Source: Micromonospora costi
Lineage (GTDB): Bacteria > Actinomycetota > Actinomycetes > Mycobacteriales > Micromonosporaceae
Assembly (NCBI RefSeq): GCF_003626655.1
Contig: NZ_RBAN01000001.1
Coordinates: forward strand, 744,001-808,000
Direction of reading: 5' to 3'
Length of the DNA: 64,000 nt
Position 1 is the first letter of the stretch. Every line of letters begins with the position of its first letter. The position numbers were made by a program, and so were the translations under genes. This document shows positions 17,461 through 26,586 of this stretch, in pieces. The notes beneath the pieces were generated by a model. It was not told the DNA's origin. It saw nothing but the letters and a program-made list of their open reading frames with translations, and did not search any database.

Positions 17461-18321
17461 ATGACCGCAGCCGCCGGTCCCGCCGTGCTGGTGGGCCTCG
17501 GTTCCGACCGCAACCTCCCGGTGGTCCAGCTCGCCGCGCGGGAGGCGGCCACGCACGACCGGCCCCTGCACCTGGTGCACGCCTTCGACTGGAGCGCCGC
17601 GTTCCAGGCGGACACCGTGGCCGCGCCGCGCGACCAGGCCGAGGACCTGATCGCCCGGGCCAACGACCTCGCCCGGGACGTCGAGCCGGAGCTGACGGTC
17701 ACCGGCGAGATCGTCGAGGGCAGCGCCGTGTCCGTCCTGCTCCGCCGCTCCGAACAGGCGTTCATGCTGGCCGTCGGCGACGGCGGCATGGCCACCTGCG
17801 AAGGCTGCGTACCGGCCGACGCGCCCGCCGTCCAGCTCGCCGCCCGGGCCAGCTGCCCGGTCCTGGTCGTCCGCCGCGATCCGCCGCCAAAGGGCCCGGT
17901 GCTGGTCGGCGTGGACGGCTCGCCCAGCTCCAACACCGCCCTGGAATGGGCGTACGACTGCGCGGCCCGCCGCGGGTCGCGCCTGCTCGCCGTCCGGGTG
18001 GTCGAACCCGACGAGGACGCCGACGAGATCGCCCGGCAGCTCGACGACGTGGTGCACCGCGCCGCCGACCGGCACCCCGACGTGCCCACCGAGTGCCACG
18101 CGATCCGGGGAGACCCCGGGTCGGTGCTGGTCGAGCAGTCCCGCTCGGCGCAGCTGGCGCTGGTCGCGGCGCGCGGTGACGAGCCGGGGCGCGGCATGCT
18201 CGGCGCCGTGGCGCAAACCCTGCTCTACCACGCGCCGGCCCCGGTCGTCGTGGTCCGCGGAATGACCCGCACCGCACCGCAGGGACGCAACGCCCGTCCG
18301 ACCCGGGACCAACGACCCTGA
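17461..18321 (+). CDS. Universal stress protein, two UspA domains
   Basis: The 286-residue protein contains two UspA domains (about 7-140 and 147-273). The second has a good nucleotide-binding start (VLVGVDGSPSSNTALEWAYD) but its later G-x2-G-x9-GS/T loop is altered (ARGDEPGRGMLGAVAQTLL); the first is degenerate (VLVGLGSDRNLPVV). GGGAGG lies 9 nt before ATG 17461. Usp proteins of this tandem type belong to the DosR dormancy regulon in mycobacteria, and this gene stands at the head of a similar block. A GGGAC-CAAC-GACCC box overlaps its 3' end but should serve the next gene. Confidence 0.9.
   Translation: MTAAAGPAVLVGLGSDRNLPVVQLAAREAATHDRPLHLVHAFDWSAAFQADTVAAPRDQAEDLIARANDLARDVEPELTVTGEIVEGSAVSVLLRRSEQAFMLAVGDGGMATCEGCVPADAPAVQLAARASCPVLVVRRDPPPKGPVLVGVDGSPSSNTALEWAYDCAARRGSRLLAVRVVEPDEDADEIARQLDDVVHRAADRHPDVPTECHAIRGDPGSVLVEQSRSAQLALVAARGDEPGRGMLGAVAQTLLYHAPAPVVVVRGMTRTAPQGRNARPTRDQRP
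18305..18318. promoter_or_regulatory. DosR-like box upstream of phosphoketolase
   Basis: GGGACCAACGACCC matches the GGGNC-N4-GNCCC core of DosR/DevR binding sites. It is 98 bp upstream of the phosphoketolase ATG, at the very end of the universal stress gene. The same CCAACG core occurs in the box at 21708. Confidence 0.5.
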
Positions 18322-18360
18322 TCAGCTTCCGCCCGACCGGTCAGGCTGGAGCGGCCGGGA

Positions 18361-18383
18361 CGCATCCGCGCCGTGCGGATGCG
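18361..18383 (+). other. Hairpin in the phosphoketolase leader
   Basis: CGCATCCGC (18361-18369) and GCGGATGCG (18375-18383) form a perfect 9-bp stem with a GCCGT loop. It lies between the universal stress gene and phosphoketolase, 32 nt before the latter's ATG, without a T-run. It may be a terminator for the first gene or a leader structure of the second. Confidence 0.5.
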
Positions 18384-18415
18384 GAAGTTCCCCAACCGCG
18401 AGAGGCTCAGTCAGC

Positions 18416-25483: not shown

Positions 25484-25491
25484 GGCTGGTC

Positions 25492-25505
25492 GGGACGTCC
25501 GGCCC
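25492..25505. promoter_or_regulatory. DosR-like box upstream of the second nitroreductase
   Basis: GGGACGTCCGGCCC fits GGGNC-N4-GNCCC exactly. It lies 107 bp before the second nitroreductase start, with a weaker copy 22 bp upstream. Confidence 0.5.
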
Positions 25506-25611
25506 TGCGCGCCGCCGGTACCGGGAAGGCACCGTGGAGAGGTACCACCGGGCCGGCGTACCACCGGGGCACCCGGCCCGACAGCTCGACGAGCTGCGAA
25601 GGAGCACCGCC

Positions 25612-26586
25612 ATGGAGACCGGCTACAGCGCCGCACAGCTGCGCGCCGCCGCCAGCGCCGCCGTCCGCGCGCCCTCCCTGCACAACACGCAGCCGTGGCG
25701 GTTCCGGCTGCGCGACGGCGCCGTCGAGGTGCTGGCCGACCCGGCCCGCCGGCTGCCGATGACCGATCCGAGCGGGTGGGGCGTCCGCATCGCGTGCGGC
25801 GCCGCGCTGTTCAACCTGCGGCTCGCGTTCGCCGTGGCCGGCGCTCCGGCCTCGGTGCGGCTGCGCCCCGACCCGGCCGAGCCCGACCTGCTGGCCCGGC
25901 TGCGGCCCGACATGCCGCGCCGCCCCACACCGGCGGAGGAGTCCCTGTACGCGGCCATCCCCCGCCGGTTCAGCAACCGCGCGCCGTTCTGGCCGGACCC
26001 GGTGCCCGCCGACGCCCGGTGGCGGCTCGCCGAGGCGGCCCGCGCCGAGCAGTGCTGGCTGGAGCTGCTGATCGGGGTCGGGGCGGTGGCCGCGTTCGCC
26101 GAGATCGCCCGTGGCGCCCACCGGGTGCTCGAACGCGACCCGAACCGCCGGGCCGAACGCGACGAGTGGGTGCGTTCCACTCCCGCTCCCGACGGGGTGC
26201 CGGCCGCCGCGGGCGGGCCCCGGAACGAGCCGCACGACCTGCTCCCCGCGCGCGGCTTCGGTGGGCGGGACCGGGCGCCCGGCCGCGACTTCGAGCCGGA
26301 ACCGCTGGTGGCGGTGCTCGGTTCGGCCGGCAACACGGCGGTCGACCAGGTGGTCGCGGGGCAGGCCCTGCAGCGGGTGCTGCTCACCGCCACGGACGCC
26401 GGCCTGAGCGCGTCGATGCTCTCGCAGGCGATCGAGGTGCCGTCGGCGCGGGACCAGTTGCGCCTGTCGCTGGGCCGGTTCGGCACCCCGCAGATGGTGC
26501 TGCGCCTCGGGTACGGCCAGCCCGGCCGCCCCACCCCGCGCCGGCCCGTCGACGAGGTGCTCGACCTGCCGGTGCCGCGCTCCTGA
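25612..26586 (+). CDS. Acg-type nitroreductase family protein
   Basis: This 324-residue paralogue of the protein at 21830 has RAPSLHNTQPWRFRLRDG near the N-terminus, and SAGNTAVDQVVAGQALQRVL and FGTPQMVLRLGYG near the C-terminus. It is shorter in the middle and only moderately similar to the first copy, so the duplication is old. GAAGGAG lies 8 nt before ATG 25612. It is transcribed away from the DosR-like gene across a 266-bp gap holding three DosR-like boxes. A strong hairpin terminator follows. Confidence 0.9.
   Translation: METGYSAAQLRAAASAAVRAPSLHNTQPWRFRLRDGAVEVLADPARRLPMTDPSGWGVRIACGAALFNLRLAFAVAGAPASVRLRPDPAEPDLLARLRPDMPRRPTPAEESLYAAIPRRFSNRAPFWPDPVPADARWRLAEAARAEQCWLELLIGVGAVAAFAEIARGAHRVLERDPNRRAERDEWVRSTPAPDGVPAAAGGPRNEPHDLLPARGFGGRDRAPGRDFEPEPLVAVLGSAGNTAVDQVVAGQALQRVLLTATDAGLSASMLSQAIEVPSARDQLRLSLGRFGTPQMVLRLGYGQPGRPTPRRPVDEVLDLPVPRS

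Follow-up and report, generated by a model that had tools for sequence, protein, structure and literature searches.

A candidate DosR/OsdR-type low-oxygen regulon that may extend to phosphoketolase and cytochrome bd in Micromonospora

DosR is known mainly as a mycobacterial dormancy switch. In Micromonospora costi, a gene block at 17461-26586 of the window (the whole 64-kb stretch of DNA analysed here; GC 74%, genome 7.18 Mb) unites a DosR-like regulator, a DosS-like kinase, genes for stress proteins and nitroreductases, and a gene for phosphoketolase. This raises the questions of whether one regulator commands these genes, which signal it would answer and whether central metabolism belongs to the response. 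We consider it probable that a DosR/OsdR-type two-component system controls its regulator gene and two acg genes as well as the pair formed by phosphoketolase and a universal stress protein (USP), and that low oxygen (or NO/CO) induces them jointly.

The gene block and its two-component system

The block runs in the order usp1(+), pk(+), usp2(+), acg1(+), kinase(+), regulator(-), acg2(+). Gene families were assigned by Pfam and NCBIfam profiles, and codon-position GC agrees with the reading frames of all seven genes. As the first-pass annotation had claimed, there are two tandem-domain USPs, usp1 (17461..18321, plus strand) and usp2 (20815..21705, plus strand), each with two Pfam Usp stretches. 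Between them lies pk (18416..20818, plus strand), a xylulose-5-phosphate/fructose-6-phosphate phosphoketolase placed in its family by the three domains XFP_N, XFP and XFP_C and by an NF003619 score of 1466 bits (cut-off 962). The GTG start of usp2 overlaps the stop of pk by 4 bases, and the two genes adjoin in relatives as well; the pairing of phosphoketolase with one stress protein gene is upheld, and their co-transcription is predicted. The two nitroreductases proposed earlier are indeed Acg/Rv3131-family FMN-binding oxidoreductases (NF047509 284 bits for acg1 and 313 bits for acg2, cut-off 199), with corrected starts: acg1 occupies 21830..22828 on the plus strand (alternative GTG start at 21824), and acg2 occupies 25612..26586 on the plus strand, where the ATG at 25612 is more likely than 25420, the start of a longer ORF.

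The convergence of kinase and regulator was also described correctly. The kinase gene (22866..24599, plus strand) and the regulator gene (24707..25345, minus strand) converge because they lie on opposite strands, with 107 bases between them. This gap holds a strong hairpin (24614..24692, fold z -5.85), a copy of a dispersed genomic repeat, which is likely a two-way terminator. Loci of Micromonospora, Salinispora and Verrucosispora share the gene order of the block wherever their sequence extends far enough, and the grouping is therefore more than chance. In some relatives' loci an insert of 2.5-3 kb separates usp2 from acg1.

The regulator is a DosR/OsdR-like response regulator of the NarL type. 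All 212 residues align with Mycobacterium tuberculosis DevR (PDB 3c3w) at 253 bits; the runner-up among solved structures, VraR, scores 153 bits. Asp54 is present, and the stretch MFLAEKTVKNYVS (recognition helix), previously called near-identical, is identical letter for letter to that of DevR. The protein is thus placed with DosR, DevR and OsdR by its greater closeness to DevR than to other NarL-type regulators, by Asp54 and by a box before its own gene. The closest other paralog in the same genome is 42% identical at 148 bits (34 others are among the matches listed), which makes this the single DosR-like protein found in the genome among those matches.

The kinase has two GAF domains, HisKA_3 and HATPase (Pfam), and a predicted phospho-acceptor, His394. 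Compared with solved structures, its first GAF domain scores 183 bits to the GAF-A domain in 2vzw, which we take to be DosT, and 169 bits to GAF-A of DosS. His150 aligns with the DosS heme ligand His149 and Tyr172 with the distal Tyr171, while Gly88 stands where DosT has Gly and DosS has Glu87; residues and domains alike group it with the DosS/DosT heme kinases. The roles of these heme-pocket residues in DosS and DosT are treated in passages of PMC4082495. The heme His, the distal Tyr and the DosT-type Gly are kept in 33/33 loci with an alignable kinase, of 100 loci examined; in one locus (L012) the kinase alignment is partial, and residues were judged only where covered. From these residues we infer that the kinase binds heme. 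The heme-ligand His together with the DosT-type Gly points to sensing of oxygen (or NO/CO) rather than redox state, so that of the oxygen or redox sensing suggested earlier the first part is favoured over the second.

The Gly at the DosS Glu87 position, as in DosT, and the similar boxes that precede the genes of cytochrome bd, a low-oxygen oxidase, weigh against a reading in which the regulon is real and its signal is not oxygen, the kinase answering redox, NO or another ligand and phosphoketolase serving oxidative or nitrosative stress. That reading is possible, if doubtful. It draws on the argument, made in a part of PMC4082495, that DosS is a redox sensor, on statements in sections of PMC4082495 and PMC5069765 that DosS and DosT both answer NO and CO, and on the fact that Acg and USP genes suit several stresses.

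Candidate boxes in the window and in related loci

Like the genes and residues above, the boxes, their conservation and the linkage of pk to the regulator gene were seen directly in the sequences. Two descriptions of the binding site were used: the mycobacterial DosR consensus GGGHCNWWNGNCCCB, as quoted in a passage of PMC2947987, and a Streptomyces matrix built from the 26 OsdR sites in Table 1 of Urem et al. (PMC5069765). Across the 64 kb the mycobacterial consensus is matched at four places, with 7 matches on both strands against 0.71 expected, and 0/100 shuffles reached 7. Of these places, three lie in the promoters of pk-usp2, acg1 and the regulator gene, and one lies elsewhere, at 62603. 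This result speaks for the low-oxygen regulon reading.

The box before pk, CGGGACCAACGACCCT (18304..18319), lies 97 bp upstream of pk and overlaps the final usp1 codons in this genome. It fits the mycobacterial consensus and scores 8.1 by the Streptomyces matrix, compared with 14.0 in many relatives. The box before acg1, CGGGTCCAACGGCCCC (21707..21722), also fits the consensus and is weak (7.0) by the Streptomyces matrix. A third consensus match (25381..25396; Streptomyces matrix 10.5) stands 36 bp upstream of the regulator start; on the minus strand it shares its 14-base core, GGGACCTTCGGCCC, with the OsdR sites that PMC5069765 tabulates for SCO0216 and SCO0167. The box before acg2, CGGGACGTCCGGCCCT (25491..25506), does not fit the mycobacterial consensus; with the Streptomyces matrix no other site in the window scores as high (15.3).

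For the loose pattern GGGNCNNNNGNCCC the window shows no enrichment, with 11 sites where 12 are expected. A strict 16-base pattern proved uninformative: none of its 4 palindromic sites in the whole genome fell within the block, and the reversed control gave 14. Within the window usp1, usp2 and the kinase gene have no box of their own. Read-through from pk could cover usp2, and read-through from acg1 the kinase gene; usp1, with no box upstream, possibly lies outside the regulated set.

A phosphoketolase search supplied the relatives: the best 80 of at least 593 loci were named, of which 20 belong to Micromonosporaceae and 60 lie outside the family. The nearest named relatives of pk are from Micromonospora, with identity up to 90% among the matches listed. 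Loose-pattern counts cover the 20 Micromonosporaceae loci plus the window, each n being the loci that have the gene with enough upstream sequence; the relatives' sequences are akin, so locus and genome counts are not independent. On this basis the box precedes pk in 17/21 loci (again among the best 80 of at least 593), the regulator, at the same position, in 13/13 and acg1 in 12/15, and an acg2-proximal box is found in 10/13. It precedes usp2 in 0/18 loci, the kinase gene in 1/14 and usp1 in 0/19, and usp1 was accordingly dropped as a regulon member. Conservation across species of DosR/OsdR-type boxes before the regulator, both acg genes and pk-usp2 is thus supported. The joint control proposed for the whole block holds, as a prediction, for these genes and is not supported for usp1.

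By the loose pattern the pk box is absent in two Salinispora loci, Plantactinospora and Hamadaea; in Salinispora a half-decayed version persists. The pattern leaves 6 box columns free; in the 17 pk boxes, 4 of these 6 are identical in at least 16/17, versus 8/75 flanking columns. That the box is kept merely as coding sequence of the usp1 end was considered and rejected, since usp1 stops ahead of it in 11 of the 16 boxed relatives (the box lies in the last usp1 codons in 4, and no usp1 was found in 1). A Streptomyces-matrix site scoring at least 10 lies within 250 bp before pk in 13/20 relatives, 4/10 other linked loci and 1/50 other unlinked loci, and in 8/640 control pieces inside pk. For the mycobacterial consensus the corresponding counts are 15/20, 0/10, 3/50 and 0/640.

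Linkage of phosphoketolase to the regulator and sites elsewhere in the genome

A family sample of 121 genomes has the regulator in 100 (E 1e-60), phosphoketolase in 110 (E 1e-100) and both in 93; the search scored the best candidates per genome, and copies may be missed. The two genes lie within 30 kb of each other in 40/93 genomes, from 24/37 genera, where our own arithmetic gives a chance expectation of about one genome. The distance is at most 10 kb in 33/93 genomes and at most 100 kb in only 41/93. The other 53/93 show no linkage at 30 kb, and some assemblies are fragmented. The linked loci show varied gene orders and two pk subtypes. A phylum sample of 198 genomes holds 20 besides this one with both genes, of which 5, counted by eye, are linked within 15 kb (G165, G174, G203, G204 and G324). 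A pk box scoring at least 10 is found in G204 and G165 and none in G203, G174 and G324; the regulators of the boxless G203 and G174 are merely 51-56% identical. Of the 60 named loci outside the family (among the best 80 of at least 593), 10 have pk close to a DosR-like gene in differing orders: three Glycomyces, two Aeromicrobium bins, one Actinomadura, one Nocardioidaceae bin and three actinobacterial bins. On plasmids, pk beside a DosR-type gene was not seen in the 3 examined of 62 listed matches (183 further records; annotation incomplete).

The box was then followed by pk copy. Linked stretches were examined for 18 of the 45 linked genomes, 20 stretches in all, with the choice made in part to include the second pk subtype (57-60% identical to the pk of this block). 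A box scoring at least 10 by either matrix precedes 11/20 pk copies, 6/9 of the second subtype and 5/11 of the first. For the top 30 pk loci of the family, a box by one or the other matrix precedes 11/12 linked versus 6/18 unlinked copies, and is found in 11/557 control pieces; counted with the Streptomyces matrix alone, at the printed site, the boxed copies number 8 linked and 5 unlinked. Two genomes (G113 and G120) have a boxed linked copy, by the family matrix, and a boxless unlinked one; in a third (G112) this is reversed.

These data bear on whether the block is a stress-gene island without shared control, its phosphoketolase answering to a different regulator in routine pentose or sugar metabolism. 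The separation of pk and regulator in the 53 family genomes and the boxless usp1 would fit such an island. We nevertheless judge it very unlikely, as the pk box is kept amid otherwise diverged DNA, the box tracks linkage among the pk copies, linkage recurs with differing orders and two pk subtypes, and the consensus sites of the window are located at these very promoters.

Further sites were sought in 1.66 Mb of the 7.18 Mb genome (about 1.64 Mb unique, as two stretches overlap the window) with a matrix from the relatives' boxes. The window's four boxes rank 1 (tied), 5, 9 and 12, which is not independent proof because the matrix contains relatives' boxes letter-identical to three of them; the window matches and pk counts given above for the mycobacterial consensus, and the pk counts for the Streptomyces matrix, draw solely on published models. 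One strong site lies 72 bp upstream of a tandem USP gene pair (C1:36950); this box is kept in 14/20 loci, and 2 further loci are too short. Another lies about 92 bp upstream of cydA (cytochrome bd) on a second contig (C6). At cydA a box scoring at least 10 by either matrix is found in 23 of the 25 genus genomes with a match (26 searched) and in 0/75 control pieces. The mycobacterial consensus fits 18/25 and the Streptomyces matrix reaches 10 in just 4/25, with 0/75 controls for both. The cydA result and the distant linked loci, of which 0/10 fit the mycobacterial consensus, speak partly against the low-oxygen regulon reading. In M. smegmatis, cydA is reported, in a passage of PMC7739888, to be independent of DevR, so that a functional cydA box would be a real difference.

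More strong matches were seen before LtrA and DoxX-like genes and inside other ORFs.

Micromonospora sporulates, and the system might serve development rather than dormancy, timing mycelium sporulation as with OsdR while phosphoketolase supplies acetyl units. OsdR of Streptomyces coelicolor affects developmental genes (parts of PMC5069765). We think this rather unlikely: the block genes are not developmental, and the further box-bearing genes followed up, in the roughly 1.64 of 7.18 Mb scanned, are USPs and cydA.

Proposed mechanism and relation to known systems

We read the block and its box sites as a putative low-oxygen regulon of the DosR/OsdR type that reaches into central metabolism and respiration, and we infer binding, activation, signal and flux as follows. 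Release of oxygen from the heme in the first GAF domain would activate the kinase, the active kinase would phosphorylate Asp54 of the regulator, and the phosphorylated dimer would bind the GGGNCNNNNGNCCC boxes. Acg proteins, USPs (dormancy-type stress proteins) and phosphoketolase would be induced jointly and, elsewhere in the genome, the USP pair and cytochrome bd with them. Phosphoketolase splits xylulose-5-phosphate or fructose-6-phosphate to acetyl phosphate without NAD+ reduction, and for that reason suits a cell short of electron acceptors. Since most near relatives retain the pk box, this acetyl-phosphate-making sugar shunt would likely be switched on at low oxygen together with dormancy-type proteins. 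An acetate kinase gene is present on another contig with phosphate acetyltransferase just upstream (pta-ackA); acetyl phosphate from phosphoketolase could thus be used to yield ATP and acetate.

In vitro, acetyl phosphate serves as a phosphodonor for OsdR (PMC5069765, section 6), which makes a feedback between phosphoketolase and the regulator possible. That phosphoketolase acts as the regulator's amplifier, its acetyl phosphate phosphorylating the regulator and latching the dormancy programme while sugar phosphates flow, seems to us quite unlikely. We give just as little credence to the wider version, in which cytochrome bd and pta-ackA form an energy arm and the whole is a carbon-gated hypoxia memory.

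Under the regulon reading, a large family of soil bacteria has a DosR-type regulator that appears, by way of conserved boxes, to command a phosphoketolase carbon shunt as well as cytochrome bd, a high-affinity oxidase. If this is true, the wider role of the system may be oxygen-dependent metabolic switching, and a harmless and testable model is at hand for the mutual feeding of acetyl phosphate and a DosR-type regulator.

The classical mycobacterial DosR regulon comprises hspX/acr, fdxA, tgs1 and the like. The Micromonospora system resembles DosS/DosT-DosR (DevSR) in its full-length alignable regulator with an identical core helix, in the heme His and distal Tyr of its kinase, in its USP and nitroreductase genes and in three boxes that fit the published consensus. 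It differs in phosphoketolase and cytochrome bd, which the passages on the mycobacterial regulon do not name. No such passage puts phosphoketolase in the DosR regulon, in line with the first-pass annotation, which placed it outside the classical regulon. The claim does not extend to the neighbourhood, since in Mycobacterium massiliense JCM 15300 genes for a USP, xylulose-5-phosphate phosphoketolase, DevR and a sensor kinase adjoin (MMASJCM_2512-2515, as tabulated in PMC4263727); phosphoketolase beside devR is therefore not foreign to Mycobacterium. That cluster, which also has a further USP and an alcohol dehydrogenase, is suggested by its authors to aid low-oxygen survival, and growth at about 6% O2 was the same as that of M. 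abscessus (PMC4263727, section 9). Its four genes lie on one strand, and the relevant sections show no adjoining Acg pair and claim no regulatory link or box. For Rhodococcus equi 103S, passages of PMC2947987 report DosR-regulon homologs with predicted boxes and call the phosphoketolase intriguing; the two are not connected there. Among the matches listed from the open-access literature, no paper was found that places phosphoketolase under a DosR-type regulator.

A DosR module outside Mycobacterium, as annotated, is present here and is not new: OsdK-OsdR of S. coelicolor exerts DosR-type control outside mycobacteria (Urem et al. 2016, PMC5069765, sections). As in OsdKR, the pair shares its region with USPs and a nitroreductase, a box precedes the regulator gene, and the box is of the same kind, the OsdR consensus being AGGGCCGATCGGCCCT, with binding of OsdR shown by EMSA in PMC5069765. 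The arrangement differs, with osdR-osdK forming one operon and kinase and regulator being convergent here. So do the targets: the predicted OsdKR regulon in those sections includes nar, pyruvate phosphate dikinase and alcohol dehydrogenase, whereas pk and cydA are boxed here, and phosphoketolase has 0 occurrences in the main text of PMC5069765. What is already known, then, is a DosR-type system outside Mycobacterium and the USP-phosphoketolase-DevR-kinase neighbourhood of M. massiliense; what is new is the conserved candidate box before pk, the recurrent linkage of pk to the regulator and the putative extension to cydA.

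Predicted boxes elsewhere in the genome

Boxes of the DosR type are also predicted at other places in the M. costi genome (G000). The gene for cytochrome bd subunit I (contig C6, 64948-66363, minus strand; 4948-6363 of stretch L112) has a predicted box about 92 bp 5' of it, and this box scores at least 10 in 23 of 25 genomes of the genus. A second, weaker box lies 24 bp closer to the gene in about half of the relatives. Two tandem-domain universal stress protein (USP) genes are paired on contig C1 (36862-38896, stretch L100), with a predicted box 72 bp upstream that scores at least 10 in 14 of 20 loci. 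The family matrix, built from the relatives' boxes, gives two further strong matches at about 495 kb of contig C1 (15102 and 15556 of stretch L140). One of these is 121 bp upstream of an LtrA-family gene and the other falls within the start of an oppositely directed, weakly DoxX-like gene.

Features within and beside the block

Between the convergent kinase and regulator genes is a very stable hairpin (window 24614-24692, z -5.85) with the arms CGCGATCTTGCA and TGCAAGATCGCG. Across 1.6 Mb of the genome the arms have 23 and 21 occurrences, respectively, and the hairpin is therefore a dispersed repeat; a further copy lies near window 63402-63592. Just before the block, at window 16492-17359, one gene encodes a protein that contains Clp N-terminal domains. 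A small minus-strand gene at 17076-17312 has a product that, judged by eye, resembles a helix-turn-helix protein. Two GTCAAC-N4-GTTGAC dyads upstream of it, at 17316-17331 and 17344-17359, may serve as the operator for this small regulator.

Variation among relatives and a plasmid-borne system

In the relative's locus L010 a gene between usp2 and acg1 (13302-15857, minus strand) encodes a heavy-metal P-type ATPase that ends in a hemerythrin domain. The window lacks this gene, and several further relatives have a usp2-acg1 gap of similar size to that of L010. In the Salinispora loci L016 and L019 the phosphoketolase box is half lost (GGGACCAACGCCTC or similar) and the gene block is retained. 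Plasmid pDK1 of Rhodococcus sp. DK17 (L280) encodes a DosR-like regulator, a GAF kinase and USPs, and genes for pyruvate dehydrogenase and acetate-CoA ligase lie a few kb from them.
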